A stretch of DNA of 64,000 nt from Lantana camara (lineage: Eukaryota; Streptophyta; Magnoliopsida; Lamiales; Verbenaceae): positions 54,665,501-54,729,500 of the forward strand of contig CM074863.1 of assembly GCA_037501455.1 (NCBI GenBank). Reading direction: 5' to 3'. Below the pieces are notes generated by a model, which worked only from the letters and a program-made list of their open reading frames with translations, was not told the DNA's origin and did no database searches. Numbering within the stretch: the stretch's first letter is position 1; each line of letters begins with the position of its first letter. A program made the translations under genes and the position numbers. Positions 764 through 34,028 of the stretch are shown piece by piece.

Positions 764-780
764 CACGTACTTGCAAGAAC

Positions 781-9037: not shown

Positions 9038-9042
<5 letters not shown>

Positions 9043-9094
<52 letters not shown>

Positions 9095-9579: not shown

Positions 9580-9646
9580 ATTTCGATCCAGTTGGAGACG
9601 AGGCAGGTCAGTGAGGCTCTTGTGCTCTTCTTTTTGTCATTCTAAG
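9580..9646 (+). other. Putative 67-nt micro-exon in B+ LTR
   Basis: Preceded by CACCTTCCTTCCATAG and followed by GTGGGTTTCTC after CTAAG. It contains GGAGACGAGGC and GTCAGTGAGGC; the minus-strand B copies have GGAGACAAGGC and GTCAATGAGGC at the same places, and C and F have related G-rich GGNGAC sequence. Inferred from splice-site-like signals and conserved position only. Confidence 0.5.
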
Positions 9647-9918
9647 GTGGGTTTCTCTACTGTTTAGCTAAATTACCCTATATACTTCCAATGTGTAAAG
9701 ATTTCGGCCAAAATTTATTATATTTATATAGCGTCGTTTCAAGAGTAAATGTTTACAACGTATAGCCTTTATTTTATGAACCCTACCAAATGTTTTGGTG
9801 AGAAATGAATGAATGCACAGAATGGGGCCCAGGGACTTAGTGTGAGTGGCTATCCGGGGGGGCATGGGCCGACGGTGATCCCTTACACTAGTTCCAACCA
9901 AATAACAGCATAATCGGA

Positions 9919-9939
9919 CCTCGTTAGGAGTTAACGAGG
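9919..9939 (+). promoter_or_regulatory. GGAG-core stem-loop in B+ LTR
   Basis: CCTCGTTA, loop GGAGT, TAACGAGG: eight perfect pairs. The minus-strand B copies read CCTCGTTA / TAGCGAGG, where the changed pair is a G-U wobble in sense RNA. The hairpin lies about 830 nt from the LTR 3' end. Confidence 0.6.
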
Positions 9940-10317
9940 AATGGACACTGAGTGCCATCTGGGGAGTCATGTAACCCCTTTTGGTCAATGAATGGATGGC
10001 CAAGCCTTGCAAACCCATCCATCACCTGGAGGAAAAAGGTGTAAATGTTCATGAATGTGCACGAAAGAATGCAACGTATGAAAACAATGAATGAATGAAT
10101 GATTAATGAATTACACAAGGTGTTCGTTGGAGATGATGCACGCCCACTCGCCGGGCCACGAAAGACCTAATGAAAATTGGATGTTATAATCTCTTTTGAT
10201 GATTTCCTTATTTCACCACTTGGGAAATGTTTTAAAAAGCTCATTTGGGATTATAGCTTGCATGTGAATGTTTAAATACCATCTTATATTATATTTACAC
10301 CCTGTTTTTATACCCAC

Positions 10318-10361
10318 CAGTCCCTATTTGGACTGAACCCATTTGGTTTTCAGTTGTGCAG
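10318..10361 (+). promoter_or_regulatory. Branch-point hairpin and 3' splice-like site, B+ LTR
   Basis: CAGTCC, loop CTATTT, GGACTG (10318-10335), then AACCCATTTGGTTTTCAG ending at 10353 and a second acceptor TGTGCAG ending at 10361. The hairpin lies 427 nt before the LTR end. Confidence 0.55.
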
Positions 10362-10374
10362 GTTTTGGGGATTT

Positions 10375-10646
10375 GCTAGGCGGGAATCCGAGTCTTTGGG
10401 AATTTGTATTTGAGTCTAGCATTCTTTTGTATAGTACACTCATCTCATGCTTATTTTATGACTCGATATTGTATTTTGGAGCGTATATGATAGCTTAGAT
10501 CGTGATGGCTCTTTTGGATATTTGCATATTGTAAATGATTTATTTTTAGAGCTTGAATGCTCATGGTATATATATATTGATCAGTTGTTGCTTCCGCTTT
10601 AATGTTTTGCTCTGATTTTATGGTTTAAGGGTTATTCCCGCCTAGC
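10375..10646 (+). promoter_or_regulatory. Perfect 13-bp inverted repeat near B+ LTR end
   Basis: GCTAGGCGGGAAT (10375-10387) and ATTCCCGCCTAGC (10634-10646) are exact reverse complements 246 nt apart. The first arm follows the putative 3' splice site and the second lies upstream of the GTTCGCTGC block near the LTR terminus. The arms are conserved with paired changes in the A LTR. Confidence 0.65.
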
Positions 10647-12433
10647 ATAGCATGTGTGTATGTCCCCGTTCGCTGCTATTTAGCTCGGGTATGGAGTGTC
10701 CATTTCATATTCGGGTCGGGTCTCGGTGCGGGGGATATGGTACCTTGCGCTCGGGTGCTACAATATACGCAATTAAATTATTTGATTACACGAATTATGT
10801 ATTTATTTTATTCTTTATATGATATTCTTGAATTTAATTGACTTAATACTTGAATTTTTGTTTGAGCCTTATTTGAAATATTTGAACGTTTATGTCCTTA
10901 TTGCTCGTTTTTAATTCGTTTACCTCCGTTCTCGTTTTCCATTTTTGTGATTATGTGATATGTATGATTTATATGTGTTATGAATGCGTTTTTATATTCG
11001 TTGCATGATTTTGTGTTCGTTTCATATGGTTTTCGAACCGTTTTATTTGTTAGGGACTTAAGGGCCTAACTTGTTTTAGCGCACCTTGGGTTCCGGATGG
11101 CGTAACTTAAGATCGGGAATTAGGATTTGAATTCTGGAAGTAAGGTTGGACTTGTAACAAAGAATGGAAGCTAGAGAACTTGGCCTCATATTTTTCTAAG
11201 CCCATTTGATCCCTCGAATTTCGCCCGAAACGTGACCTGTGTGACAGATTTGCGACCCTCGCCTGCTTTGCTCATAACCAACCAATTTCTTATGTGAATC
11301 CACCCAATTTTGAACCCATTTAACCCTTATTCAACACTTAATCTCACTCCCTCTCTCTCATTTCCGTTCCGACCCAAGAAAAGAAGAAACAAAGCAGAAA
11401 ACGTAGCACAAAGGAGAAAGGAAGAAAGAGAGCAACTACTATTCACTCTTGGACATTTCTTGCTCGTTTGACCTCCAATCTTCATCAAATTCGAAAGGTA
11501 TGCTCGGAATTCAAACCTCCATCTCCTTGACTTCTACGTTAAGTTTTTGAGCTTGAATTTCTTGGAAACTTGCTGAAAATCGGACCACCATTTATGAATT
11601 TAATTTCTTGAATTTGAAGATATATGTTTCATTTACTTTCTTGTCTTGCCGTGTGGAATTGTGGTGTTTTAAGGGGTGTTTAGCTGAGTTTTAGCTGTCC
11701 ATTCCTTGCTCTTTTGTTTCCCTTTCCTGCTATTGTTGTTGTGTAGCTTTGAAGATGGACAAACAGGGGCTAGAGACGGCATTTTTACGGCGCGACCGAG
11801 AGAAGGGGATTTCTAGTCGCACCCGCTACTCGAATTTGTCCAAGTTTCAACTTTTTGCTGTTGAGTTGCTGGAGAGGGTGGTGGTCGTGCTTTGGGCGTG
11901 TTTAGCGTCGCGGCCACCACCCCATTTGTTGCTTGTTTCAAGCTGTTGTTCCCTTCTTGCTTTGCTTGTCATTTCATTCATGTTTCTCATGTTCTTCTTT
12001 CTTCTTTCTTGCCTTGTATGCTTTAGTAACTTGTTATATTATGTGTTACATGTTTTATCATGAATTTATTGTGTGAATTCGAGGCTCGTATGTGCAATAT
12101 ATGACGTAATATGTGCTACGTGTCCTCTAATGTGTATGCATGAATTAATATGACATTTCCTTGCTTCGTTTGATATTTTCTTATCTCTTTTGTTGTATGC
12201 ATGCATGCCAAACGTGTTATATGATGTGTTATGAGTGTTGTACGAAATTTATGGATTTATTTAATTCGAAATATGTGAATTATGATTTAATATGATCTAA
12301 TATGGCCTTATATGACCTAAATGAAACCTCATTGTATTCCTTATACGTCATTTGCATTCATATGCATTTGCCGAGCATCTATTTGGTGCATATTGAGTCT
12401 AATTTTGTCGTTTGCCCTCTGTTATGTCCTTAG

Positions 12434-12505
12434 ATTTGTTTCGTGGGTGACGAGGAGGCCTCTTAGGAGTGTTTTGAGTTCGTTTCGTCCGGTGTGGTCG
12501 ACAAG
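12434..12505 (+). other. Putative 72-nt micro-exon in C 5' LTR
   Basis: Preceded by GCCCTCTGTTATGTCCTTAG and followed by GTGAGGTTTCTTTC after GACAAG. The 3' LTR copy is 26304-26375, the same length with both splice-like dinucleotides intact (TGTCCTTAG before, GTGAGG after). This is the only family here in which both LTR copies keep both signals. Confidence 0.55.
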
Positions 12506-13365
12506 GTGAGGTTTCTTTCTTTTAGTTAAACGACCTACAACCCTATATGTATTTTTAAGCCCGTATGCGACTTATGTATATATATATTTATGTAAATACG
12601 TGTTTGATTAGTATTATATGGGAATTATCCCGTTTTGTTATGAAATCATTTGAAAAACGCTTTTATATATATACGTAACCTGTTTTTACGTTTGTTTGAT
12701 TTGAAAAGGGTTGGTGTGTGTGAATGGTTTGAAATAGCGAGATTATGACTTTGAAATATAAGTCGAAAAATTATTATATTTCGAAAATTATAAAATAATG
12801 ATTTATGACTTATGAAATGGGCCCCCGAGAAGTGGTATGTGATCTCGGGTCGGTCGTGGGGTCACCGAACTCTCTCATCAACACGACTCCACTTATGTAG
12901 AGAGATTGTCCAACCTCGGGAGGTCGAGGGGAGGGCAATCTCTTGAGAACCGGCGGTTAACCCTCGTCGGAGAGCGGTAGGATCCCCCGACTCAACCTTT
13001 ATGACGAGAGTACGGGGCTGAGAATGTCCATCCTCATCCCCACCCAGAGAAGGAGGATTGATTTAGAAGATTTTTTGTGTTTTGACTTCGATTTTGGATA
13101 TGAAGGAAGTAAGTGGGTTTGAACTCGTTCTCGCCGAGTTCTTATGATTTTGATTATGATCACGGTTCGTAAAACGGGAGTGGACTACAAATTTATAAAA
13201 TTGGTTAATTTTGGCCTTCGACCTTAAACCTTTTTCCATATATATAGTATCACGGGACAAAATGATTGAGGATTTAAAAAACTACGCCCCGGTTCATGAG
13301 CTCCTTAATTTTGAATATGCTATGCTTTTACGTATATGTACGTGTGCCTGTGTTAGCCCCCTCAC

Positions 13366-13427
13366 CAGTTTTTAGGACTGACCCCTCCTCGTTGTTTCTT
13401 TCTTCCCTTATTTCTTTTGAGTTGCAG
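13366..13427 (+). promoter_or_regulatory. Branch-point hairpin and 3' splice-like site, C 5' LTR
   Basis: CAGTT, loop TTTAG, GACTG, then ACCCC and a long pyrimidine-rich tract to GTTGCAG|GTGTTCG (AG at 13426-13427). The 3' LTR copy at 27236-27298 has GACTAAC in place of GACTGAC and a weakened stem, but keeps the tract and GCAG. Confidence 0.55.
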
Positions 13428-13446
13428 GTGTTCGTGGGGAGTTTGT

Positions 13447-13720
13447 GCTAGGCGGTGGTCGTTTGTCGAGTCTTGGGTTTTGTATTTAGTTTCATGCATC
13501 TTTCTAGTTTATTCTGTACTTTTGAGCTTATGAAATTTATGTATCTGCGAATATGAATTGAAATTGAGAAATATGTATAAGAGGTATTTAAATTTGAATT
13601 TGACACTTGTATATTCTATTATTTGATGAGCATGTATGTTTGAATATTCGAATCCTAGTGCTTCCTCATGTGATATTTGTTTTGTTTGCACACTTTGACT
13701 TAGGGTCTAGATCGCCTAGC
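13447..13720 (+). promoter_or_regulatory. Inverted repeat near C 5' LTR end
   Basis: GCTAGGCG at 13447-13454 and CGCCTAGC at 13713-13720, eight perfect pairs 258 nt apart. They occupy the same places as the longer inverted repeats of B and A. Confidence 0.5.
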
Positions 13721-13838
13721 CTAAGTGAGATTTTATTTGTCTCTCGTTCGCCGTAGTTTGATGCGTGTGTGGAGTTCTCATTTCATTACACGTGTAGGGC
13801 TATGGTGTGGGGGATGTAGTGCTCTACGCTCCGGGGTG

Positions 13839-14026
13839 TCGTGTCTGGTCTGTCTAGGTCGTTCGGCTTGGGATTATGTGTTTGTTTGCATTCACTTTCC
13901 CATTTACGTGAATTATGTGTATTATTTGTGTCAATTGTGCACATGAACATGCACCAAAACCCCCGCATGCATTGACATTTTCTTGGAATTGTATTTTATT
14001 TCAGGTTGCTCTTCCAATATCAACAA
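13839..14026 (+). mobile_element. Family C internal leader without PBS
   Basis: Begins TCGTGTCTGGTCTGTCTAGG and TCGTTCGGC, matching (reverse complement) the post-PBS leader of family B at about 39300-39370. C and B therefore share a leader just inside the element, and a deletion of roughly 70 bp has fused the C LTR to it, removing the PBS. The leader is interrupted at 14027 by the F solo LTR. Confidence 0.75.
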
Positions 14027-14405
14027 TGTAGCACCCGAGATGAGAGCACCACATCCCCCTCCCTATGAGCTCGATCCATACATGAACCAAACTCACAGCG
14101 AACGGAAGACAATGAAAAGGACTGTCCTAGCTAGGCGGAATCTAACCCTGGAACATTCAATAATAACAAAGGTACGGAAGCAAGGCAATTATCTATCCAA
14201 TATCAAGTCAATAAATACAACTTCAACGAGAAAGCAAATACGGGTTCCACTAAGTAATGTACATGTCGTAACCTGTCGCGAGTTCAATTCAATTCAAGAA
14301 ATAGATCAATACAATAATGAAATACATTATGCAGTGAGTGTACAAGTGCAAGACTCGAGCAAAGACTGACGACTCAATTTCGCCTAGCAACCACCTGGAA
14401 AGAAC

Positions 14406-14446
14406 CTGGAAGAAAGGGGAAAGAGGGATCAGTCTCTAGAAGACTG
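14406..14446 (-). promoter_or_regulatory. Branch-point hairpin and 3' splice-like site, F LTR
   Basis: On the minus strand CAGTC, a seven-base loop, GACTG at 14446-14430, then ATCCCTCTTTCCCCTTTC and TTCCAG ending at 14406, followed by GTTCT. It has the cleanest pyrimidine tract of the set. Confidence 0.6.
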
Positions 14447-14456
14447 AGTGAGCAGG

Positions 14457-14459
<3 letters not shown>

Positions 14460-14501
<42 letters not shown>
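14460..14501. repeat. (TA)n microsatellite
   Basis: About 40 bp of pure TA dinucleotides inside the F LTR. Confidence 0.95.
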
Positions 14502-14506
<5 letters not shown>

Positions 14507-14884
14507 ACATGCACATGCAAGTTGTAAATCCCGAGCAATGTTTTGGTTAAAGTAGTTCCTGTGAAGGGCGAGAAATGAATTGATCAATGCTCGGACTTTA
14601 CAACTATCAGTTTATACAATTAATTACAATTACAGGCTATCAGTGGCTCGGCGAGTGAGCGTGCACAATCTCCAACCAAACTCCGACAGTGTACAATAAC
14701 TAAGTTCCAATTTAAAGGTGATCATGCAATCATTAGGTTCAATCGTTACAATACAATCACTTCAGTACACTGCACAATTAGTTCCATCCTTCTCCCTCCT
14801 GTGATGGTCCGGGTAGCTAGCCCTCGCCATCCAGTCAGTGTGGTCAATGGGTGCATGAATCCCCAAGGACCGGGACTCCATCCT

Positions 14885-14902
14885 CCACTAACCTCCTAGT
14901 GG
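14885..14902 (-). promoter_or_regulatory. GGAG-core stem-loop in F LTR
   Basis: On the minus strand CCACTA, loop GGAGGT, TAGTGG: six perfect pairs, with the GGAGGTTAGT core identical to D and G. About 866 nt from the LTR 3' end. Confidence 0.6.
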
Positions 14903-15188
14903 ATTCCGGGTTCATCTCAACAGTATGGAGGAGTGCAAGAGATCATCGTCGGCCCGATACTCCCCGGATTACTCAATACACTCAACCCTGGGCCCCAATC
15001 AATGTGCAGTACAATATCTCGCCAAAACAAGAAAGGTCGGTAAGCAACAATAACAATAGGTTCAATTTCAATAAATGTTTATTCGATTACAGTTTTGAAA
15101 CAATATAAATATAAGTATGGTTTTTAGGCCAAAACTCAATCATGCAGGTTTTAGGGTTATGTACGTAACTAGAACGAAACACCCTCAC

Positions 15189-15263
15189 CTGAGGAGTGAC
15201 AACCCCAGAAGAACTGACAAGACTGGGGCAAACTCGATCAAGTTGTCTCCGCCCTAGTGACCA
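15189..15263 (-). other. Putative 75-nt micro-exon in F LTR
   Basis: On the minus strand preceded by GTTTCTTTCTTGTACAG and followed by GTGAGGGTG after CTCCTCAG. It contains GGGCGGAGACAAC, close to the GGAGACAAGG of family B. A possible upstream donor is GAGAAG|GTGAAC at about 16301. Confidence 0.5.
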
Positions 15264-16690
15264 CTGTACAAGAAAGAAACACGATGTACTCGTGAGACAC
15301 GACTCAATCATGAAACCAAATAGGACGCACGGCAATGATATGAGATGTCATGGCATGAATAAAGGGATTATAAAATGATGTGATATGTTTTGGACATGTT
15401 CATATACACAATTAATGTCTCTATATTGTAAGTGAGCATACAATTCAAGTACACACGACTGTTGAACCCTAATTCCGATTTATAAATTAAATAATACGTA
15501 CCAACGCATTTAAATAATAACAATTCCACCATTTCCAACTTGCGTTTAAGAATCCAAAGAATATTGTACTAGAAATCTCAGTTCATAAATGTGATATACT
15601 AAACGGTAAAACCAATTTTAAATCATGCTGCCATAATGTTAATAAGTAAACCGATATCACAAAACAATTATATTAACTATAATCCAATACACCTCAAGTA
15701 GCAGGAACTAATTTAAATTGCATAACCTCATGATTACCTTTGTAATAAAACCACCTACATCCACTAACAGATTACATAGGCATCAAACATATTCTAATTC
15801 TTACATAATGTTTAATAAATAAGTATACATAAACTTAATTTACATATATTCACATTTAGGTATTGATAGGTTACAATATACAACTGCCAAGTCGTCAATA
15901 ACTCAAGAATTAGTTAATAAAAATTTACATTCTACAATTACACAATTTCCACCAACATACATATATGTATACATACATATTGAATTGACTTTAATCATAA
16001 TTAAATCCAAATTGTTTAAGAGATTTGAAACAGTTAACAAATTCTCATTCAATTAGTATCACTTTAGAAACTTTGCTATACCAATTCAATAAAGCCAAAT
16101 TTAAATTCTGATTCAACCCAAGTTAGGCAAATCACCATTCTCAAGTTCAAATATATTTTAACAAAATTTCACAATTAAACTCAAATTTAATCAAACTCAA
16201 TATTATAAACTAATATATATATCTTTGTCGAAAATTCCAAAATCCAAAACAAGAATCCCAAAATTAACAAAAGATTCCAAGTACTACTACACAAGTTCAC
16301 CTTCTCGGCAACAACTAACCACATTCTCATTTAGAGTGACTAACCATTAAATTTCAAGGGTCGTAGCTCCTTCGAGTTAAATATTACGTACCAATTTCAC
16401 AATTACGAAAAAAAATCATCAACTACACAATTACCCACATTTGTATATCCATAAGACCTTGATCGAATCAAAACTCAAACAATAATGAAAGCAATTCTTG
16501 ACAATTTTCCCAAATACAAAACATTCTTACAATTAATACAGAGTATATACATATACAAAGTATAACACTTCAAAATTGAGGAATAAGTTTCGGTGGTTGA
16601 GGGTCGCTGTACCAGCGATTCAATAGAGAATAATGGTGGACGGCGGATAGTGAAACTAGAGGCTGGAAGCAGAACTAGACTGTGGGGCTC

Positions 16691-17158
16691 TTACGGTGGT
16701 GCAAACCGATAGGTATGGCAACTAGAATGGGGTGCTGCTACAGCTGTTATTCCCCGTTGCGGAAGTGAGAGATAGGAGTGGTTATCGACAGTGGTTGTGA
16801 CTGAAATTGATGGTCGGGAGAGTGAAGGGGTTGCCGGAGTTGAGGTTAACATCGGACGGCGCAGCTTGGACAGACTAATGGTGGCTGAGAGAGGTGTTGG
16901 TGGCGTGTTAAGGCTGGACGGGAAAAAGGGGAAAAACAGAGATGGCGTGGTGGTCGGTGGGAATCCGCTGTTGTGTATCTCGTTTTCTCCATGTCCAAGA
17001 GAGAGTGAGGGAGGGAGGAAGGAAGATGGCAGGGCTGCTGGTAGATGTTCTCTGCCGAAAATCGCAGCGGCAACCGGCGGGTATGGGGATGGTGGTGTGC
17101 AGTGTCGCTGCTCACTGGTGATGTCATCCTTGACTGATCCAAAAACACGGGGCGTCAC
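16691..17158 (-). other. GC-rich segment at the sense 5' end of the F LTR
   Basis: About 470 bp much richer in G and C than the surrounding LTR, open on both strands: a 164-codon minus frame (16691-17185), a 100-codon minus frame and a 137-codon plus frame all overlap. The minus frame is rich in Pro, Ser and Thr with no domain I recognise, and it starts outside the LTR. It could be a captured host 5' exon or UTR, or simply GC-rich promoter DNA. No other family here has this block. Confidence 0.45.
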
Positions 17159-17857
17159 AAACAAGTACCACCGAAAAACGGGCAAAGAAAATAAGAGTCT
17201 ATGATATATTTAAAAGTTTGGAGATTTTGAACCTTCGAAATGGTTCGGTGTTGAAGATATCCAAGTTGAAGGTTGGTTGATCGAGGTCAAGATTCAAGTG
17301 GTTCAGGAAGTGGAGTTGGAGTTTGAAGAGTTTGGGAGGAGTTCACTTAGGAGATTTTACTTGAGAGTCTTACTACGAGTTTACCCTTTCCCATGTAACA
17401 GTAAGAAGAATTCCAAGAGTTCTTAAATCTTGAACAAAAACTGAAGAATATGGTTAAATTTATGATGGAGCTTGAGAGATTGGGATTCGAGGAAATTGCC
17501 CTAAATCTGAAATTTTCTACAAGGGAACGAAAAAGATGGATGATGTTATATTAGAAACTTGAGAGACGCGGAGCCGAGAAAGATTTCCATAAAGTCCGGA
17601 ATTATTACAAGTGAATAAAGATGGAATTCAAGAAGCTTACCAAATTCAGTTGTACCTACTTCGTTCGAGAAATAGGGGATGCTATTCCAATGGAGATGGA
17701 TAAACAAAGGTTTTAATCTCACAATTGTTACATGGGATATAGATCCGGTTTGAGTTCGAGTACAAGAAAGAGATCTGAGTTTTAAGAAAGTTCTTAAGAA
17801 CTTCAAGATGTCAACAACGACAAGAAGAAGAAGAAAATTCTATCATCAAAGGAGGAT

Positions 17858-18160
17858 TTGATGCCTTCTCTATCGGAGATAATTCAATGCTCGTATTGCC
17901 AAGGCCTGAACCATATGGAAGAAGTATGTCGGAAGAAGTTCGGTAGGTGCTTTAAGTGTGGAGAATCGGGACACATGATGAATGGTTGCCCGAAGAACAA
18001 GAATCCAAGGCCTACAGAGATCTGTTGTTCCAAAACTCTGAGTCAAATCCGACTTGGAGCAAGTGAAAATGAAGATTTTGACAATGAGCTCAACACTACC
18101 GCTATGGTGAAAGGTACACTAAAGCATTCATGGCACTTCATACATGCATCTTTCATTTAA
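17858..18160 (+). pseudogene. gag: Ty3/gypsy gag C-terminal fragment, two zinc knuckles
   Basis: A plus-strand frame with two CX2CX4HX4C zinc knuckles near residues 12-25 and 31-44: CSYCQGLNHMEEVC and CFKCGESGHMMNGC. Such knuckles bind the element RNA in retrotransposon gag. The N-terminal gag core is not readable upstream, and the frame ends after about 100 codons without protease. It is a remnant of the family C nucleocapsid region, before the RT remnant at 18619. The methionine at 17858 is only the first ATG in an interrupted frame, not a trusted start. Confidence 0.8.
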
Positions 18161-18849: not shown

Positions 18850-19060
18850 GCTCCGAGGAGTTGGTGGTTCGTTCTTCTTCAGAGTTTCATGGGTGGCTTC
18901 AGTTGTGGTTTCTACAGTGGTATTGTCGACTACGTGCTCAAGTAGAAGAACAGAGAAGTTACCTCAGAGTAAAGTCTCTAGTGTTATCGGCATTCAACAG
19001 GAGATTCGTCTTTCTATAGGCGGTCGTTCCGTGACATGAACGACAAATATGAGGTACGGT

Positions 19061-19330: not shown

Positions 19331-21218
19331 TGCCATCGGTTGAAGACCGAGCATCGAGAACCGTCAGGATTCTCGAACTACTTCTGAATTCTATTTCGAA
19401 GTGGGAGCAGACGATTAAGGACTTCGTGTCCGGTTTGCTAAAACTAAGGAGATCCTAAGAGATTTGAGGGGTTTCTCATTTTAACAAGTTAACCTATTTT
19501 TTCTTAACGCGGTTGTACAACGAGTTTCGAGAGCTTCGTGGTCTGGAAGAGGAGATTCTTAGAGCGTGATCAAGACTCTGCTTTAGGACCTGAGGACAGG
19601 TCCTTTTAAAGGATGGGAGTTTGTAACATCCCGCTCGTCCATCCGTACAGGTACGCCATTACGGGAGTGCTATATGCGCATTTCAATTATTTAATTATGC
19701 GAATTATGTGTTTAATTTATTCTTTATGTGATATTCTTGAATTTATATGACTTAATACTTGAATTGTATTTGAAATATTTGAACGTTTATGTCCTTCTTG
19801 CTTGTTTTTAATTCGTTTGCCTCCGTTCTCGTTTTTTATTTTTGTGATTATGTGATATGTATGATTTATATGTGTTATGAATGTGTTTTTATATTCGTTG
19901 CATGATTTTGTATTCGTTTGATACGGTTTTCGAACCGTTTTATTTGTTAAGGACTTAAGGGTCTAACTTGTTTTAGAGCACCTTAGGTTCCGGATGGCGT
20001 AACTTGAGATCAAGAATTCGGATTCGAATTCCAGAAGAAACTTCGGGCTCATAACAAAGAATGAAAGCTAGAGAACTTGCCCTCATATTTTTCTAAGCCC
20101 GTTTGATCCCTCGAATTTCGCCCGAAACGCAACCCGTTTGACAGATTTGCGACCCTAGCCCGTTTTGCTCATAACCGACTCGTTTCTTATCCAAATGACC
20201 CATTTTTGAACCCATTTAACCCTTATTCAACCCTTAATCTCGCTCTATCTCCCTCATTTCGTTTCAGACCTAAGAAAAGAAGAAAAGAAGAAGAAAACAA
20301 AGCAGCAAGGGAGAAAGAAAGAAAGAAAGCAGCCACTATTCACTCTTGGACATTTCTTGCTCGTTCGACCTCCAATCTTTGTCAAATTCAAAAGGCATGC
20401 TTGGAATTCGAACCTTCATCTCCTTGCCTTTCTTTTAAATCCGATTTTCTTCATTTTCATCCATTTTTGAGCTTTGTATAAGGACATATGTGAATAGTTA
20501 GGTTAGTTACTATTTTGGATGATTTCTTCCAAATCTTTGATCCATTTCTTGGTTTTAAGTTGTGTATATGATCTATATGACTTCTACGTTAAGTTTATGA
20601 GTTTGAATTTCTTGGAAACTTGCTGAAAATCGGACCACCATTTATTTCTTGAATTTGAAGATATATGTTTGATTTGCTTCGTTGTCTTGTCGTGTCAAAT
20701 TGTAGTGTTTTGAGGGGTGTTTGTAACATCCCAGATTTCGGGGCTAAGCAGAATTCCTTCTAACGTCCGTAATCACTATTCATTCCTAAACGTTGAAATT
20801 TTCCAAGCCACCTTTACCTATCCAATATTGGGCTCAAACGAATCCTTACAAAATTTTATGAATTTTGACATTATTTCGGTACCCTAATTCTCATCCAAAC
20901 TCCCGTAGCATTAGAAATCGTCCGAAAACCCTAACTTTAAAGTATTTCGTATTCAAACACTTTTCCTATTCGATATTATATTCAAAATAATCCTCGAATT
21001 ATTTTATGAATCATGATCACTTTCTCGAAAATTAATTATCATCCTAGCTTCGTTTTATCATATTTTTCCTAATTTAAAACCTTTAATACTTTAACTTTAA
21101 ATGCTTAAACGTAAAGTGTTTATAATCATTCCAAAGCTCGTTCTTTTACTATTTTCATTACTTCAAGCTCTCGTCTCTTGACCCTTAAATTATTTTTGTA
21201 TTATTTTATATCTAATTA

Positions 21219-21250
21219 TGACATCATCCATGACATCATGGATGACATCA
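21219..21250 (+). promoter_or_regulatory. Triple TGACATCA repeat in D LTR promoter
   Basis: TGACATCA at 21219-21226, 21231-21238 and 21243-21250, exactly 12 bp apart, about 175-200 bp upstream of the TATA box. TGACATCA resembles bZIP (TGACGTCA-type) sites. The G LTRs have two copies with the same 12-bp spacing. Confidence 0.65.
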
Positions 21251-21425
21251 TAGAAAGCTAGGTGTAGGGACAAGAATTGTCCACATTTTTCCTACAAAAT
21301 TTTTACACTTTGGAGATCCTAATTTCTCCACATTTTTACCATAAGATTTCTACACTTTTATGATCAAGAATTGTCCACATTTCCTACACAAAATTATAAT
21401 TCCCTCTAGGTTCCAATTTAATACC

Positions 21426-21433
21426 TATAAATA
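21426..21433 (+). promoter_or_regulatory. TATA box of D LTR
   Basis: TATAAATA followed by CCCC, at a place matching the TATAAATACCCC of the G LTRs, and about 80 bp before the splice-donor-like CCCAAG|GTAAGT. Confidence 0.65.
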
Positions 21434-22862
21434 CCCCCTCATACCTCACATTTAAAGCATCAAAATCCCTCCATTTCCCTCTCTCTCCCTCACGCCACTC
21501 TTTCCCTCTCCCAAGGTAAGTTTTTATTTTATGCTTTAAATTCTTGCTTTAATTCATGCTTAGTCAATATAGTATAATTGGTATAGTTAATATGTTTTAA
21601 TTCATGCTTAGTTAATTTATGCTTTAATGTGAATTTATGATTTATGAATTAATATTTCATGATTAGATATAATATGTTACATTTTCATGAATTATATTTA
21701 ATTAAATGCATGATTTATGATATGATATAGTACATTCATGGATTTAAATATTCATGATCTTGTTTGATTAAATTCATGCCTAGAACAATTTATTTAGAAT
21801 TATTTTTCATAGAGAATTTATATATTTTGCTATATTATGCTTCAAATTCTATGTTACAAATATGAATATGATCAATTATGTTACACACCTCCTTTGAATA
21901 TTCAGATAGACTTAAGAATATGTGCTTGATGTTCTTGGAACAATGTGTGGACCGTGTGCTAGTGTGCGTGTGTGTGAGATTAATTTTATGTTACAAAGTG
22001 TTTAATTCATAAGAAATTGAATACTAAATGTTTTAAATAGTAATTTTGACTTTTGAACCCATAAGCTGAATATTTAGAAAATATTATTAAAATAATTATA
22101 AAATTAGTTTTGGAATTTTTAAATAAAGATTTTATCCGAATTTTCCAAAAATCGGTAAATTGTGCATTATTTTCAAAATATAACCTACATTGTCAAATTA
22201 AATTCTAAATTTTAACTCTAATGTTCTAATTAGGATTATAATATGATTAATAAATATTTAAGTGGTTAAAGAATTCATGAAACCTGATTAATTACTTAAT
22301 TTCCCTTAAACTGTTAAAATTAGAGTTTACCGGGAATTCTCTAACATGATAAAGTTTATGTGTTTACTTGATTGGAATAATGTGTAATCCTTTTATGCAT
22401 GAATATTATGTGTTTTATGTGCTTATTTGATTAAAATAAGGAACCTAGTTCTAAGCCTATAGCAGTTAATACTTTTAGGCGCACTAGAATCCACATTACA
22501 ATGTCTGACTACCGGTATAGATGAGGGTTAAAATATGTTCAACTGAAATCATGCCTATATCTATGTATCTAGATAAAAATATTTTGAATCCTACCTATTA
22601 TTTGATTTGCTCCCTATACGTACTATTATACAATATTCCTCTTTATGAGGAAAATACTTTTTTGTCGGAATCAGGGTCTTACCCAGACATTAAACAATTC
22701 AGTCTTATTATTACTAAGAACTGATTCCCGACAAGCAAGCAAAATATCTTATCATTATTATTATGGGCCCCGGCGCTTAAACGTATCGAGCAATTACCCG
22801 GAAGGTATCGGGCCGAGGGTATTGTTGGTGATACGGACCGCCACCAACTCTTGGTAGTGGTT

Positions 22863-22879
22863 TAACTGGAGGTTAGTTA
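22863..22879 (+). promoter_or_regulatory. GGAG-core stem-loop in D LTR
   Basis: TAACT, GGAGGTT, AGTTA: five pairs with the GGAGGTTAGT core, about 795 nt from the LTR end. Confidence 0.5.
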
Positions 22880-23211
22880 CTCCACGCCAAGTTATAAGGG
22901 AACACTACTTCCCGCATATTGTTCATGGCCAGTAGGGGTAGCTCCCCACGGCACTAGAGTAAGGAGATATTATCATATTGGTTTTATTAAAGTATCGGCG
23001 CCTTGATCAGCCCGATACTGTTTTACCAATTATTTACGGAGTTACGGATGGAGAGGCCAAGCTTGCCGGCAATAAAGTTCTTGTTACAAACGGTTCATAT
23101 TTCTACAAATATTCCAAGTTACCCCTATCCCTACTTTTACAAATATTATGAACCGTTTCCTATTTGCTATATCCTATTGCTAATATTGTAGATCAAGATC
23201 TTCTTGATCAT

Positions 23212-23231
23212 ATATATATATATATATATAA
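23212..23231. repeat. (AT)n microsatellite in D LTR
   Basis: About 20 bp of AT dinucleotides directly upstream of the branch-point hairpin region. Confidence 0.9.
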
Positions 23232-24010
23232 ACCCTCATACCCCCTTCACTTAGTCACTTTGATTAACCCTCTGGCCTATTTTAAAATGCATGATTTCAG
23301 GAATCAATGAAGGTTAACTAGAGGTATCTTGAAGCATTACAAAAGTAGGTTGGATCCGATCCTAAGAGTACACTGTCTTCAGCCTAATCTCTGTAGAAAC
23401 AAACCATCTCATACTTTGTCCTTGCATGTTAACCTGTTGTACTCTTTTGCGAACTACTTCGATCAATAATGATAATCCTTACTCAATGTACGTTATCCTC
23501 CCCGTTCATTGGTAAAGTTGAATCTCTTTATCTTCCGCTGCACTGTGACATATAGTCCATTCATATATTATCCTGACCGTTCGCCGTAGTATTTCATGAG
23601 TGTTGGGTCTAACCTCCACTCAGGGATTATTGCGGTGCGGGGTTGTAGTGGTGGGGAGGTGCTACAGTGTTTAACTGAGTTTTAGCTGTCCATTCCTTGC
23701 TCTTTTGTTGCTCTTTCCTACTGCTGTTGTTGTGTAGCTTTGAAGATAGAGAAACAGGGGCTGGGGATGCCATTTCCGCGACCTGCAACACGCGGTCGTG
23801 CCCGCGACAACGAGAAGGGGATTTCTTGTCACGCCCGCAACCAGAATTTAGCTAAGTTTCGACTTTTTGTTATTAAGTTGCTAGAGAGGGTGGTGGTCAC
23901 GACCGCGACCACCTTTGGGCGTGTTTGGGGTCGCAGAGCTTGTTTCGAGCTACCATTCCCTTCTTGCTTTGCTTGTTGTTTCGTTCGTGTTTTTCCTATT
24001 CTTCTTGCTT

Positions 24011-25878
24011 CTTTCTGTTAGGAATAGTGCCCTAGAAAGCCGATTGAATATCCGCTTTGTACTTTTCCTTATTGAGATCACAGACAATCTTTGAATAAAA
24101 TAACGAATTGAGGCAACACTTTTTTATATGCTCTTGTTTGGTATGCGTTTACTTTAGTTGTGCATGTATGAGAACTCCCCTAATCCTGATGACTTTAGGA
24201 CTCTACCATTTAGGTGAAATGGTTCATGAAACGAGCCCTATTTCACATAAGTCATGATTAGTAAAATACTCCAAGCCGATGAGTCCTACAGACAGTGGGA
24301 GTGTCAACCTGACTCCTCTAAGGCTTGCTTGTGGGATCACGCCCTTAAGAAGGACCACCTTGTTTCATGGAGGTGCAAAGTGTATAGTTGATACGTGCGT
24401 GATACATGAGGGTGCTTACTTCAATAAGTAAGTTCACTGAGGTGCCCCGTGTGAGAAGATTCCTAAATGGGAAAGGAAGTTTCTATTTCAGGAAATGGAA
24501 ACTTCCAGATTAGGAAATATCTCACGAGTCATTGATGTGATTAATTGATCCTTTGACTTGAGGTTCCATGTCACTTTATGAGTTAACTCTGTAGTCTTAG
24601 GTATAAGCTTTAAAGGGTATCGCCTTAGACAACTATTTCAAGGCTTTTGCTGGGGCTGCACAAGTGACTCATGAAAGTGAATGAGAATCAAGAAAGGACC
24701 TACACTTGCATTCGCAAGGTGATCTCTTATTATGTAAGTCATTCATATGCCATATGGAGTCCTTGCCCAAGGCAGTAGATCAAGACATCAAGAAAAGGGT
24801 TTCTTAGATTGAAATCAAATGGATATGAAACGCACTTAGCTTTAAGGCCAGATTAATAGGGTTCTGATTATTCCCTTACCCTAGATCTTGGTTGAGAGAT
24901 AGTAAGTAGGAGGGTTGTATCTCACGTGAATCAATGACTTAAAGGTTCTGTCGAATCGAGACATTCCAATTCAGCTAGGGGTTAAACACCTGTTGCTAGA
25001 CTATGATCATTTAATCTGTGGACTGATTAATTAATTAGTGAATTAATTAATTAGGGTCACTGCTAATTGAATTGAGAACCTAGAGGGTTACACACAACAA
25101 CTTGGTTACATGAGTTGAGGCTTTAAAATGATTAAACAAGTTAATCACGCCAAGAGGGTTCTCCACATGTGGGTCACGTGTTAATTATTTAATAGACTTT
25201 GGTTTAATTTCGAATTAAAAAGAAAGTCTTATTTTAGAGAAAATTAGTCTAGTTAATTAATTATGAATTAATTAATTAGATAAAATAAGTTATTTATTTA
25301 TTTAATAAATGAAGTATAAAATTATCCGAAAGGAGTTTGGATATTTTTAGCTCTCTTAAAAGTTTATTTGAATTAGAATTCAAAGCCAAAGTTCAAAATT
25401 ACTTGATGATCAAGTAATAAGAGAGAGGGACCAAATCCTTAGTCCATAAGGACTAGGATTTCGGTCGCCCCTCTCTACTTATATATAGGGGACCTCGAGC
25501 TCCCCTTAGAGAGTGATTGGCAATTCTTTTGGTTCATGTGTTGAACACCGTCTTTCTCCAAGATCAAACAAACCCTAGGTTAAGCCTAAACACTAACTAG
25601 AGAACTAGCATCCTTACTAGTTAGATTGTAGTCAAGTTGGTGGACTATCTCTAGAGAGCTTCAAGTTAGAAGTTTTGAAGATTCGAGCTTTACCAAGGAT
25701 AGGGGATCAAGTCTCGAGAAGAGCATTCTTGGGTGGCTTGAAACGCTTCAAGAAAGATTATTGAAAAGTAAGTTTCTAATCTCTACGAATTTGGATACAC
25801 GATTGCGAGTCCAAGATCCTTTTGTCGGAAAATTTTTAAATTTACGCTGCTTTCTAATTCCAGTTTTCCAACACTTTC
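24011..25878 (+). mobile_element. Copia-like solo LTR with TSD CTTTC
   Basis: An 1858-bp sequence (24016-25873) starting TGTTAGGAATAGTGCC and ending TTTTCCAACA, flanked by CTTTC at 24011-24015 and 25874-25878. The flanking C LTR joins cleanly when it is removed. It shares none of the TGTAAC terminus, hairpins or splice-like signals of the other families. A TGTTAGGA start and CCAACA end suggest Ty1/copia, but with no internal region present the superfamily is inferred. No ORF is of interest. Confidence 0.88.
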
Positions 25879-26303
25879 TTGCCTTGTATGCATTAGTAAC
25901 TTGTTATATTATGTGTTACATGTTTTATCATAAATTTATTGTGTGAATTTGATGCTCGTATGTACAATATATGACGTAATATGTGCTACATGTCCTCTAA
26001 TGTGCATGTATGAATTAATATGACATTTCCTTGCTTCGTTTGATATTTTCTTATCTCTTTTCTTATATGTATGCATGCCTAACGTGTTATATGATGTGTT
26101 ATGAGTTTTGTACGAAATTTATGGATTTATTTAAAGTGAAATATGTGAATTATGATTTAATATGATCTAATATGGTCTTATATGACCTAAATGAAACCTC
26201 ATTACATTCTTTATGCATCATTTACATTCATATGCATTTACCGAGTGTCTATTTGGTGCATATTGAGTCTAAGTTTGTCGTTTGCCCTCTGTTTTGTCCT
26301 TAG

Positions 26304-26375
26304 GTTCGTTTCGTGGGTGATGAGGAGGCCTCTTAGGAGTGTTTTGAGTTCGTTTCGTCTGGTGTGGTCGACAAG
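26304..26375 (+). other. Putative 72-nt micro-exon in C 3' LTR
   Basis: The second copy of 12434-12505, with TGTTTTGTCCTTAG before and GTGAGG after. Length and boundaries are unchanged although the surrounding LTR copies differ at many sites. Confidence 0.55.
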
Positions 26376-27714
26376 GTGAGGTTTCTTTCTTTTAGTTAAA
26401 CGACCTACAACCCTATATGTATTTTTAAGCCCGCATGTGACTTACGTATAAATATGTTTATGTAAATACGTGTTTGATTAGTATTTTGTGGGAATTGTAC
26501 CGTTTTGTTATGAAATCAATTGAAAACCGTTTTTATATATATACGTAACCTATTTTTACGTTTGTTTTATTTGAAAAGGGTTGGTGTGTATAAATGTTTT
26601 GAAATAGCTTGATTATGACTTTGAAATATAAGCCGAAAAATTATGAAAATTTTAAAGTTATAAAATAATGATTTATGACTTATGAAATAGGCCCCGAAGA
26701 AGTGGTATGTGATCTCGGGACGCTCGTGGTGTTGCCGAGCTCTCTCATCAACACGACTCTACTTACGTAGAGAGATTGTCCAACCGCGGGAGGTCGAGGG
26801 GAAGGCAATCTCTTGAGAACTGGCGGTTAACCCCCGTCGGGGAGCGGGTAGGATCCCCTGACTCAACCTTTATGACGAGAGTACGGGGCTGAGGATGGCC
26901 ATCCTCATCCCCACCTAGAGAAGGCGGATTGATTTAGAAGATTGTTTGTGTTTTGACTTCGATTTTGGATATGAAGGAAGTAAGTGGGTTTGAACTCGTT
27001 CTCGCCGAGTTGTTATGATTTTGATTATGATCATGGTTCATAAAACGGGAGTGGACTACAAATTTATAAAATTGGTTGATTTTGGCCTTCGGCCTTAAAC
27101 CTTCTTCTATATATATTGTATCACGGGATAAAATGATTTAGAATTTAAAAAACCATGCCCCGGTTCATGAGCTCCTTAATTTTGAATATGCTATGCTCTT
27201 ATGTATATGTACGTATGCGTGTGTTAGCCCCCTCACCAATCTTTAGGACTAACCCCTCCTCATTGTTTCTTTTTTCCCTTGTTACTTTTGAGTTGCAGGT
27301 ATTCGTGGGGAGTTTGTGCTAGGCGGTGTTCGTTTGTCGAGTCTTAGGTTTTGTATTTAGTTTCATGCGTCTTTCTAGTTTATTCTGTACTTTTGAGCTT
27401 ATGGAATTTATGTATCTGCGAATATGAATTGAAATTGAGAAATATGTACAAGAGGTATTTAAATTTGAATTTGACACTTGTATATTATGTTATTTGATAA
27501 GCATTTGTGTTTGAATATTCGAATCCTAGAACTTCTGCATGTGATATTTGTTTTGCTTGCGCACTCTGACTTAGGGTCTAGACCACCCAGCCTAAGTGAG
27601 ATTTTGTTTATCTCCCGTTCGCCGGAGTTTGATGCGTGTGCGGAGTTCTCATTTCGTTACACGTGTAGGCTTATGGTGCGGGCGATGTAGTGCTGTACAC
27701 TCCAGGGTGCTACA

Positions 27715-30778: not shown

Positions 30779-31568
30779 TTAACCGCAAGGGTAGCACCTC
30801 TTCAACTTATCCCGACATGTGTCGTAGGCATGGTTGTTCCCTCCACAATGGGTACACGGTGGGAATTCTTTCTCTGGCTTTGAAGGGTTTCGGGTTTTAT
30901 GCTTCTTCCCACGAATCTTCTTGGTTTGAGTTTCGTGTTGATGGGATCTTCCTTGTATTTGTAGATTTGAGCATAAACCCGACTTAAATTTAGACCCCGA
31001 TGCATCTTTTTTTTTTTTTTTTTTTTTTTGCTTTCTGTTAAAGTCCACGATTCAACCCTTAAAGCTCTCTCTGTGGCCTTATCCCATGTGCTTGTATCTT
31101 TTGCAATTAAAGTTTCCTTGATTTTATCTCGAAGGCCCTCCATGAAGTACCTAGTCTTCATCTCTTCGTTGCCCGTGATATGGGGCACATACATACTCAA
31201 TTTCTCGAAGCCTTCTATGTATTCTGTAACCGTTTTGTCTCCTTATTTTAATGTGAGGAATTTGTCGAGTCTTCGTTCTTGTCAAATAGCTGGTGTGTAC
31301 CTCTTTCTAAATTCTCGAATGAACCATCCCATGTCAACTCTTTGTTCGTTGCCTCTAATTGGGAGGCAACTCTTTTCCACCATTTTCTTGCTTGACCTTG
31401 TAGGAGCGACGTAGCTAGGTGAGCCATGTCTTGAGAATTGCATGGCCACATTTCAAATACGCTCTCTATTTTTGAGAGCCACTCTTCGGCCCTTATATCA
31501 TCTCCTTCTCAGAATTGGGAAGGATTAAAGTTCCTGAACTCTCGATACATCATCGCCATCAGATTCAT
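30779..31568 (-). pseudogene. gag: Ty3/gypsy gag pseudogene of element E
   Basis: The best-preserved coding remnant in the window. From the ATG at 31568 the frame stops at codon 20 (TGA at 31511-31509), then reads through AEEWLSKIESVFEM and ATSLLQGQARKWWKR, the WW region typical of retrotransposon gag, and SFENLERGTHQLF. A frameshift near 31230 leads to YVPHITGNEEMKTRYFMEGL and ATERALRVE, the C-terminal half of the gag core. A T23 tract (31007-31029) gives a poly-Lys run and a further frame change before a CX2CX4HX4C knuckle, CTHCGGNNHAYDTC; a second knuckle begins RCYPCG and is cut by a stop. It is not functional. Confidence 0.85.
31007..31029. repeat. T23 homopolymer inside E gag
   Basis: A run of 23 T on the plus strand (A on the sense strand), encoding a lysine run in the gag pseudogene. 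It is either slippage of a shorter A-rich basic stretch or a captured poly(A). Confidence 0.9.
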
Positions 31569-31879
31569 AGGTTGTACTTCGGTTGAAGATTGCCCTTGGT
31601 TGTACGAATGTTGATGAGATGGTTGACCATAGCGTTTTTAACGCAGTAGCATCCTGAAAATCTCAACAACTACAATATAGAGATATGCATGTCGATTAGT
31701 AAGTGCATATGTCACATAATAAGCCAATCAAGAGCAACCAAGATATGCAATGCATCATGTAATATAAATTCAACAAAGTGATAAGATTTCAAATGCATAG
31801 CATATCAAACCGTGATGCAAATGCTCAAATAACCAAATTAGACACAACACGACAACAAACCCCGATTTTACAACCTGGG

Positions 31880-31891
31880 TCTCTGGTACCA
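31880..31891 (-). other. Primer-binding site of element E (mutated)
   Basis: On the minus strand TGGTACCAGAG follows the LTR end TGCTACA and the spacer TTCTTAAG. The plant initiator-Met tRNA PBS is TGGTATCAGAGC, so one T-to-C change is visible. This fixes 31900 as the 5' LTR boundary. Confidence 0.8.
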
Positions 31892-31899
31892 CTTAAGAA

Positions 31900-32829
31900 T
31901 GTAGCACCCCGCACGGTGGGTCACCATATCCCCCGTACCAAGGCCCAATCCGCATACGAAATAAAAGTCAGTACATGAACCAAACAGTGATGAACGGGAG
32001 ATAGACAGACACATACCTAAGTTAGGCGGAATGTAGACCCTGAACTTCACAAAACTCAAACAAGCACAAATACGGAAGCGTAAACATGTCATACAAAATT
32101 CAAACATACTGGTGACAGGTTCAACTAGCATAGATACCTAATTTCGAAAACAAAACATAAATCATAAATGCAAATAGGTTCATGCTATCCTCAGAAGCCT
32201 GCCCCGAATATCAATATATAACATAATCAAAAAAATGCGTACAAATACATTTGTACTTATATAAAAGTTTCAAATCGTATGAAATGCGACTGACTCGGAC
32301 CTAACTAAACTTGACAGACTCAACACACGCCGTCTAGCTCGAACTCCAAAGCTAAAACCTACAAACTAAAGACATGGGGAGGGAGAGGGTCAGTCCAAAG
32401 ACTGAGTGAGGGGCTACCCACACACACCTACATATACATAAGACCACAGCACGTACAAAAATCATAATGTTCATGAGCCCGGGGATAGTTTTTGCACACC
32501 AAAACATTTTCCCCAGATATATACATATAAGGATACTTAGCGAAACAAAAAAAAAACAAACTTATACGTAGCATAACATAGGTTCATATCTTAGCATATC
32601 AAACGTTTCATACAAAATCATGTCGAAGCTTTACTCCCAAGACATATCGTATCAAAACAAACGTAACAAAATAAAACAAAACATACCATATCATATCATG
32701 CATACCAACCTCTTCTTCGGGTGATGGAAGGGTTGCGCGACCCTAACCATCCAAGCAGATGAGGGGAGTGCTCAATGTTTCTCCGACCCTCAGGACTTCA
32801 TCCCCCAACTAATCCTCCTGATGTGTTCC
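31900..32829 (-). repeat. Family E 5' LTR, first part
   Basis: Starts TGTAGCACCCC. Carries GTTAGGCGGA (32031-32040) and GCCGTCTAGC (32329-32338), a degraded version of the long-range inverted repeat; a CAGTC/GACTG hairpin (32391-32404) with GACTGACCC and an acceptor-like CTTTAG or TGTAGG; and AGGAGGATTAGT (core near 32812). Interrupted at 32829 by the B array; TSD GTTCC is at 32825-32829. Confidence 0.88.
32391..32404 (-). promoter_or_regulatory. Branch-point hairpin in E LTR
   Basis: On the minus strand CAGTC, loop TTTG, GACTG, followed by ACCCTCTCCCTCCCC and CTTTAG. About 491 nt from the LTR 3' end. Confidence 0.5.
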
Positions 32830-33257
32830 TGTAACACCCGAGCGTAAGGTGTCACATCCCCCGCACCGAGACCCGACCCGAATATGAAATGGACGATCCA
32901 TACCCGAGCCAAATCACGGCGAATGGGGACATACACACCCTCTATGCTAGGCAGGACTAACCCTTGAACCATAAAACAGCGTAAAACATTAAAGGGGAAG
33001 CAATAAACGGACATACATCGTGCAGATATGCAATGAGCATCACAGTTTCAAATTTTAAGTCATATACGCCCTCAAATGCCATCAAAGCTCAAAACAACAA
33101 GTACGCTTCATTATTATTTATATCCCATGATCCAACGTGCAATATGTAAGTGTAAGACCAAAAATACAAGGGGTAAAAGCGAATGTAAGACCTATGACTC
33201 GAATTCCCACCTAGCTCCCTTGACACCTACACAACACAACTGAAAGCCAAACGGGTT

Positions 33258-33274
33258 CAGTCCAAAAGGGACTG
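33258..33274 (-). promoter_or_regulatory. Branch-point hairpin in B LTR 1
   Basis: CAGTCC/GGACTG with a five-base loop; copies at 39836-39852 and 43304-43320. On the minus strand GACTGAACCCGTTTGGCTTTCAG follows in LTR 1, giving a possible branch point and 3' splice site. Confidence 0.55.
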
Positions 33275-33663
33275 GTGGGTATAAAACAGGGCATAAATAT
33301 AATATACAACGGTAATTAAACATTCACGTGCAAGCTATAATCCCAAGTGAGGTTTTTAAAGAGTTTCCCAAGTGGGTGAATAGAAATCATCAAAAGGGAT
33401 TATAACGATTCATTAACATTAGGTCAAGGTCACTAGTGGCCCGGCGAGTGGGCGTGCATTATCTCCAACCAACACCTCGTGTAATTCATTACCATTCCTT
33501 AACATTCATTCATTCTTTCTTTTCATGCATATCATTCTTTCGTGCGCATTCAATAACATTTACACCTTCTTCCTCCGGGTTGGTGGCGGGTTTGCAAGGC
33601 CTATCCACCCATTCATTGACCAAAAGGGGAACATGACTCCCCAGATGGCACTCAACGTCCCTT

Positions 33664-33684
33664 CCTCGCTAACTCCTAACGAGG
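33664..33684 (-). promoter_or_regulatory. GGAG-core stem-loop in B LTR 1
   Basis: On the minus strand CCTCGTTA, loop GGAGT, TAGCGAGG: eight pairs including one G-U. Copies at 40242-40262 and 43710-43730. The B+ LTR has the fully paired form. Confidence 0.58.
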
Positions 33685-33963
33685 TTCGGTTACGCCGTTC
33701 ATTGGTGGAACTAGTGTGAGGGATCGCCGTCAGCCCTTGCCTCCTCGGTTCAACACTCACCCCAAGTCCCTGGGCCCCATTCATTGTGAACATTCATTCA
33801 TTCATTCTCGCCAAAACATTTGGTAGGTTCATGAAAGAAAGGTTTTACGTTGAAAACATTTACCCTTGAAAACGACTCTATAGATATATATTCATTTTTT
33901 GGTCGAAAGCTTTTCACATTGAAGGTATATAAGGTCATTTATCTAATTAGAAGAGAAACCCAC

Positions 33964-34028
33964 CTTAACGACAAAAAAGAGAACACACGAGCCTCATTGA
34001 CCGGCCTTGTCTCCTACGAAATCAAAAT
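33964..34028 (-). other. Putative 65-nt micro-exon in B LTR 1
   Basis: On the minus strand preceded by CACCTTTCTTGCACAG and followed by GTGGGTTTCTC after GTTAAG. Copies: 40542-40606 (signals intact) and 44010-44074 (acceptor AG changed to AA). Confidence 0.5.

Follow-up and report, generated by a model that had tools for sequence, protein, structure and literature searches.

The usual view of long terminal repeats (LTRs) is that they provide a retrotransposon with its promoter, poly(A) site, and integration ends. We analyzed a stretch of 64,000 nucleotides (nt) of Lantana camara DNA (contig CM074863.1, positions 54,665,501 to 54,729,500; hereafter the window), in which the LTRs very probably hold spliceosomal introns that are lost when spliced RNA is copied back to DNA, an estimate that leaves aside what the introns do. 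Genomic LTRs lacking intron 1 in families A, B, and C, or both introns in family A, were found with breaks at the borders predicted for a three-exon layout with a micro-exon inside the LTR, and some of them belong to transposed elements with target-site duplications (TSDs). A sequence-only reading of the window had proposed this layout, which the genomic copies bore out. Its further claim, that splicing separates spliced from genomic RNA, was not supported, since intronless LTRs sit in transposed elements with TSDs, primer-binding sites (PBSs), polypurine tracts (PPTs), and paired LTRs, pointing to spliced RNA as a template.

Genomic copies without the introns

If spliced RNA is reverse transcribed, both new LTRs should be intronless, because their repeat (R) and unique 5' (U5) regions are rebuilt from the 5' end of the RNA. 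Short joined-exon probes were searched against the window's own genome (1.27 Gb), and the best 40 candidates of each search (of 3904, 2975, 1533, and 1552) were scored; all counts are thus scored matches and not genome totals. The features of families A, B, and C in the window were as follows.

2388..2445, minus strand: A exon 1, 3' end (5' limit unmapped), joined to exon 2 in genomic copies
1615..2387, minus strand: A intron 1 (GTATAG...CCAG), absent in 35/40 scored matches by query coverage, borders inspected in 15 (L062, L064-L075)
1542..1614, minus strand: A micro-exon (exon 2), 73 nt, from flanking signals and genomic joins
781..1541, minus strand: A intron 2, absent in 5/40 scored matches
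396..780, minus strand: A exon 3 to LTR 3' end, from acceptor 3 and genomic joins
1257..1297, minus strand: A GGAG-loop hairpin in intron 2
797..814, minus strand: A branch-point-like hairpin 5' of acceptor 3
35269..35316, minus strand: B exon 1, 3' end, from genomic joins
34029..35268, minus strand: B intron 1, 1240 nt, absent in 11/40 scored matches
33964..34028, minus strand: B micro-exon (exon 2), 65 nt; more copies at 40542-40606 and 44010-44074
33227..33963, minus strand: B intron 2, predicted (no loss found)
33652..33692, minus strand: B GGAG-loop hairpin
33258..33274, minus strand: B branch-point-like hairpin
32830..33226, minus strand: B exon 3 to LTR 3' end
11438..11497, plus strand: C exon 1, 3' end
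11498..12433, plus strand: C intron 1, absent in L057
12434..12505, plus strand: C micro-exon (exon 2); second copy at 26304-26375
12506..13427, plus strand: C intron 2, predicted; GGAG hairpin at 12902-12942
13428..13838, plus strand: C exon 3 to near LTR 3' end

For family B, exon 1 ran unbroken into exon 2 in 11 of the 40 scored matches, the join reading CAACAAG|ATTTTGA with small variations. The other 29, including three window copies, matched exon 2 alone, and the 3' end of intron 1 was visible in all 18 of these that were inspected. When the 11 joined loci were aligned by blastn to the B1 LTR, the alignment ended at base 1143 in nine of them and, for L018 and L023, at 1138; it restarted at 2382 in all 11, against a prediction of 1143/2384 with AG common to both sides. 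L016, L017, L022, and L025 begin at base 1 of the B1 LTR, and all but L022 extend to base 3582. In family C, the same join was present in one of 40 scored matches (L057), with breaks at 737/1670 versus the predicted 735/1672.

Family A carried all three exons joined in five of 40 scored matches, exons 1 and 2 only in 30, and exon 2 alone in five; 15 of the 35 joined matches were inspected, the other 20 being counted by query coverage. Ten intron-1-only loci and three fully intronless copies (L073 and L074) broke at bases 606-610/1368-1375 of the A1 LTR (predicted, 606/1380), the short overlaps arising because the end of exon 1 resembles that of intron 1. These three copies had their second break at 1454/2206 versus the predicted 1452/2214, as did two full copies in L075, for which the first break was placed by a probe match (77%) and spacing. 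Loss at the splice borders in RNA-derived copies, as expected of spliceosomal introns, was hence found for both introns in A and for intron 1 alone in B and C. The generalization that every intronless copy keeps intron 2 was overturned by the A copies without both. Within the window itself no intronless LTR was found: 15 junction 24-mers gave six loose matches in total (up to five mismatches), which we took for resemblance to unspliced sequence.

The intron-1-only matches of family A comprised 22 in a tandem-like cluster at C2:59398820-59471039 and eight elsewhere. This region of ~72 kb (L062, L064-L072), where several of the 22 A-type LTR matches stand ~2.7 kb apart and a PBS follows some LTR ends, has the look of one very short, non-autonomous element repeated in tandem.

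Intronless LTRs in transposed elements

Two solo LTRs of family B without intron 1 were flanked by TSDs (L016, ctgtc; L017, atgaa). L020 and L019 turned out to be the two LTRs of one B element, 98.9% alike and both without intron 1, with TSD atata, PBS, and PPT. In family A, L073 is an element with two 878-nt LTRs from which both introns are gone, with TSD taaaa, PBS, and PPT. The L019/L020 element and L073 thus each display the paired TG..CA LTRs, TSD, tRNA primer site, and PPT of an LTR retrotransposon. Intronless LTRs in such transposed elements indicate that spliced RNA was reverse transcribed and integrated.

Splice signals of the LTR layout

The seven blocks named by the sequence-only reading (in A, B+, F, two B copies on the minus strand, and two C copies) all lie where it had placed them, are 65 to 75 nt long, and directly follow a pyrimidine-rich tract ending in AG. 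The 3' flank that it gave as GTGRGG was right in position and too narrow in sequence: GTGAGG or GTGGGT directly follows the block, GTGGGT being the form in B, and the flank is better written GTGRG[GT]. The same block was found in family D, which that reading had not named, at 46644-46724 (CCAG|81 nt|GTGAGG), with a donor at 47703 and an acceptor at 32358. Families G and H have a donor and acceptor 3, and no exon 2 block was seen in them. The rows for these families and for B+ were as follows.

1..62, plus strand: B+ exon 1, 3' part (truncated by window start)
9580..9646, plus strand: B+ micro-exon (exon 2)
10362..10762, plus strand: B+ exon 3 to LTR 3' end
46725..47703, minus strand: D intron 1, predicted, new
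46644..46724, minus strand: D micro-exon, 81 nt
31900..32358, minus strand: D exon 3 to LTR 3' end
15189..15263, minus strand: F micro-exon
14027..14405, minus strand: F exon 3 to LTR 3' end; GGAG hairpin at 14872-14912
21425..21515, plus strand: G TATA box (CTATAAAT) and predicted exon 1 ending AAG|GTAAGT
21516..23300, plus strand: G single predicted intron; GGAG hairpin at 22852-22892
23301..23666, plus strand: G exon 3 to LTR 3' end
52163..52552, plus strand: H exon 3 to LTR 3' end (TATA at 49995, donor at 50087)

Among the window copies, donor 1 is GT in 13 of 14 (H1 has kept GT and lost the preceding G), acceptor 2 is AG in eight of ten, donor 2 is intact in all ten, and acceptor 3 reads AG|G in all 13, across seven families. 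With exceptions among copies, the segments therefore show the GT...AG borders, the pyrimidine tract, and the branch-point-like CTRAY of spliceosomal introns, CTRAY being what we take to be the branch point from its consensus. The last 60 to 100 nt of exon 1 contain zero to three ATGs and exon 2 zero or one, while the introns contain 14 to 45 per kb. The statement that the LTRs of different families are mostly not alignable proved too strong, since blastn gave alignments at 59 to 61% identity for the pairs B+/F (1.9 kb), A/F (1.4 kb), and C/D (~0.7 kb).

Several observations weigh against splicing of these LTRs. The acceptor 2 AG was lost in two of the ten window copies (A2 and B3), donor 1 is GC in one of 14 (C2), acceptor 3 was lost in two of 27 B copies, and the donor 1 of family F (16300) is weak and doubtful. 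No join of exon 2 to exon 3 was found among the 40 scored matches of B or among those of C. Exon 3 retains 10 to 32 ATGs per kb, so the leader is not ATG-free. Finally, exons were scored with splice matrices in seven LTR pieces, with 300 shuffles each; the micro-exon ranked 1 to 11 among 669 to 1149 candidate exons in each piece, and an equal or better exon occurred in 18 to 296 of the 300 shuffles, so that the splice scores of single LTRs are within chance. Sequence scores alone do not prove splicing; the weight of the case comes from recurrence across families and from the genomic intron losses.

Hairpins in intron 2 and a possible packaging signal

A GGAG-loop hairpin with a stem of at least 5 bp was present once, between the last donor and acceptor 3, in 11 of the 14 LTR pieces scanned, 799 to 944 nt from the LTR end in the 10 pieces having that end inside the window; it was not found in C2, H1, or D. 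Shuffled sequences had it at that place in 0 to 3 of 200 and anywhere in 8 to 21 of 200. In seven chosen rows (D, C2, and H1 excluded), whose register was set by hand per row, which favors pairing, all 35 cells of the inner stem were paired and each of its five pairs had two-sided changes; 16 of 5040 permutations did as well. Across 27 B copies, after rows broken by insertions had been dropped, conservation of the hairpin was 0.988 versus a mean of 0.90, with nearly equal flanks (0.965 and 0.975). RNAalifold, run on intron 2 sequences aligned by MAFFT, missed the hairpin because its loop was misaligned.

A conserved hairpin with GGAG in the loop is the form of a psi-type packaging signal, and intron 2 could accordingly act as one, the loop binding the zinc knuckles of Gag and only RNA that retains intron 2 being packaged. 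We regard this model as unlikely. The recurrence and covariation just described speak for it, and so do the 12 intron-1-only losses of B and C, all of which continue into intron 2 and 10 of which keep the hairpin. However, the two intron-1-only A loci examined differ, L062 having the hairpin and L066 none, and it was not found in C2, H1, or D either. Transposed, fully intronless A elements have no such hairpin, including L073, complete with paired LTRs, which argues against a strict need for it in replication, although another signal may serve. The GGAG loop of human immunodeficiency virus type 1 is itself replaceable, according to part of the account in PMC7599994.

In L059, a copy of family C, an F-like stem (CCCACTA GGAG GTTAGTGGG) stands at the place of the hairpin and the usual C stem is missing, suggesting modular exchange between families.

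A second hairpin lies 5' of acceptor 3 in seven families, its 3' arm entering the CTRAY-like branch point; the C2 copy of it is broken. It falls within the best conserved 21-nt window of the 27 B copies (0.996; flank, 0.949), other stretches of intron 2 reaching 0.995 and 0.993. In the eight window rows its pairing is within chance of re-dealt arms, being reached by 1440 of 40320 permutations; once L006 was added, the figure was 1440 of 362880. Shuffles of single sequences reached it in 44 to 263 of 1000 in seven rows, C2 having no such stem.

Loss, gain, or deletion

Intronless LTRs might instead be ancestral and the introns a later gain. Intronless A-type and B-type copies are numerous, and our trees were unrooted (midpoint only), both of which would suit this order of events. 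The 3' end of intron 1 (GAGCRTC..TATTTGGT..TTGAGTC), however, is alignable across A, B, C, D, and F, so that the intron is probably older than the families and loss is likelier than gain. In addition, the intronless B copies did not form one clade: in a tree of 29 rows (L018 and L039 omitted), supported branches forced at least two changes. A repeat with 26 rows (L018, L022, L039, L041, and L044 omitted) had the same outcome, a single clade receiving p = 0.029 in the approximately unbiased test, and a single loss in B is disfavored. We therefore consider late gain very unlikely.

Within this conserved end of intron 1, the block TGCCGAGCRTCYTATTTGGT..TTGAGTC, ~15 to 55 nt 5' of exon 2 in B (window 34081-34044, minus strand), is one of the stretches most strongly conserved from family to family.

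Ordinary DNA deletion or recombination, rather than spliced RNA, could also produce joined copies, and the two bases AG shared by the two borders of intron 1 could guide it; this identity is AG alone in A, B, and C, while D has two extra bases in common. Against this, the same GT...AG segment is gone in A (773 nt), B (1240 nt), and C (936 nt), three families with introns of different sequence and length, the loss occurred at least twice within B, and both introns went together in A. Deletion is thus a highly improbable source of these copies. We give next to no credence to the idea that the signals are kept for reasons of DNA or RNA structure and play no part in splicing, since the joined genomic copies fit predicted splice borders, even though the blocks of intron 2 are conserved between families as much as the exons.

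A model for LTR splicing and its role

In the model that we infer for the splicing step, the transcription start, the 3' end, and the role, the introns lie wholly within the LTR, 5' of the PBS of Ty3/gypsy-type elements. RNA polymerase II would begin transcription in the LTR ahead of exon 1, a start suggested by the TATA box 91 to 92 nt ahead of the donor position in G, H1, and H2. The host spliceosome would then join exon 1 to the 65- to 81-nt exon 2, and the latter to exon 3. The first of these joins is seen in genomic copies of A, B, and C and the second in those of A only; both are predicted for D and F, while in G and H exon 1 is predicted to be spliced directly to exon 3. Because the introns are upstream of the PBS, the spliced transcript would keep its ends and primer site. 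One or both introns would be removed from some transcripts, spliced and unspliced RNA both being reverse transcribable, and reverse transcription of spliced RNA would rebuild both LTRs without introns and found intronless lineages.

Introns are lost easily and repeatedly, so their persistence in every family of the window suggests a benefit, possibly in expression, in removal of upstream ATGs, or through an element within the intron. The likeliest role, which we propose tentatively and at somewhat less than an even chance, is that the introns raise expression and remove many upstream ATGs, while the branch-point hairpin keeps splicing partial so that spliced and unspliced RNA coexist. A broader picture, to which we extend the same tentative degree of belief, is that of a widespread class of plant LTRs with R-U5 introns serving as an RNA-fate device. 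Splicing would be kept partial by the hairpin, the GGAG structure in the retained intron would serve the full-length RNA, and spliced RNA would be an alternative template repeatedly founding intronless sublineages, with families swinging between long, intron-bearing and short, "processed" LTRs.

If correct, introns wholly inside LTRs would help to explain the length of some plant LTRs (2.5 to 4 kb), LTRs could shrink by hundreds to more than 1000 bases in one replication cycle, and genomic DNA would be a record of RNA splicing. Intron loss would also affect the classification and dating of elements, because both use LTR length and LTR-LTR identity, and the division of RNA between translation and replication in a plant retroelement would become testable.

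Retrotransposons of the window

Nested LTR retrotransposons crowd the plant-type DNA of the window. Families were called by self-comparison together with LTR starts (TGTRACGCCCC-like), LTR ends (GGGTGYTACA-like), PBS (TGGTATCAGAGC-like), and PPT.

396-2993 and ~5774-8375, minus strand: family A LTRs, from LTR ends and self-comparison
32830-36411, 39408-42508 (partial), and 42877-46459, minus strand: family B LTRs, TSD ggaac
<1-395 and 8376-10762, plus strand: family B+ LTR, split by A
up to ~13850, and 19622-27714 (split by G and other sequence), plus strand: family C LTRs
46460-48256 plus 31900-32829, minus strand: family D LTR, split by B
14027-17159, minus strand: family F LTR
20722-23666, plus strand: family G LTR, TSD gtgtt
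from 48696, plus strand: family H, three LTRs

Family B is an LTR retrotransposon with LTRs at 46459->42877 and 36411->32830, TSD ggaac, a PBS like TGGTATCAGAGC, and a PPT; the extra partial LTR lies between its two end LTRs. Family H forms a row of LTR-internal-LTR-internal-LTR with a period of ~6.1 kb (window 48696-64000). From LTR ends and LTR length, we tentatively assign the elements to the Ty3/gypsy chromoviruses, Tekay/Del clade. A simple motif search in six frames of the window found no reverse transcriptase motif, and the element interiors of A, B, C, D, and H measure 2.2 to 2.9 kb without it. Scanning nine open reading frames gave gag remnants only, with CCHC knuckles, in C (17798-18157) and D (30805-31508): Retrotrans_gag scored 23.6 bits, under its cutoff of 24.1, and zf-CCHC 23.4 bits, over its cutoff. 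The window copies look non-autonomous. A scan of the window against Rfam returned no families at the gathering threshold.

Six bacterial assemblies (L001-L006; CPCC, DSM, and JCM strains) have contigs resembling plant LTR retrotransposon DNA, which is probably contamination. L005 and L006 were read for the layout, L001 covering just 218 nt of LTR: L006 has the TATA box, AAG|GTAAGG, hairpin, and acceptor, and L005 is without that acceptor. The GGAG hairpin was absent at the expected place from all six contigs, and their support for the layout is weak.

Comparison with known systems

Introns wholly in the LTR and erased via spliced templates were not found in the literature searched, subscription papers being mostly outside it. 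Penelope-like elements can likewise carry introns in their terminal-repeat region; they are a different class of retroelement, and those repeats are not true LTRs. The accounts cited below are each drawn from part of the source. Plant LTR elements are generally without introns, Ogre and EVADE being exceptions, and no LTR intron is mentioned in the part of that paper drawn on here (PMC12786077). Like the elements described here, these two are plant LTR retrotransposons with introns; theirs yield subgenomic RNAs, and EVADE splicing removes the protease region (PMC12786077). In sunflower, splicing was described in expressed elements, and Tekay is missing from the expressed set in the part of that work drawn on here (PMC7730604).

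BARE1 of barley shares with the present elements a plant LTR retrotransposon, alternative splicing, and RNA pools of different fate (PMC3735527). Its intron, however, is located where the gag region ends, and the RNA spliced there stays out of particles (PMC3735527), whereas here the introns are in the LTR and intronless genomic copies exist. In place of a coding-region intron of the BARE or EVADE type, we thus find introns between the LTR ends, upstream of the PBS.

In foamy viruses the LTR's R region contains the major splice donor, which, as here, is found in both LTRs and 3' of where transcription starts (PMC3694450). The foamy donor is tied to downstream viral gene expression and poly(A) control (PMC3694450). 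A donor of the foamy type is joined to acceptors downstream of the primer site, whereas the acceptors of our joined copies are in the same LTR as the donor. Because donor and acceptors share one LTR upstream of the primer site, the spliced RNA of the Lantana elements would stay a template for replication.

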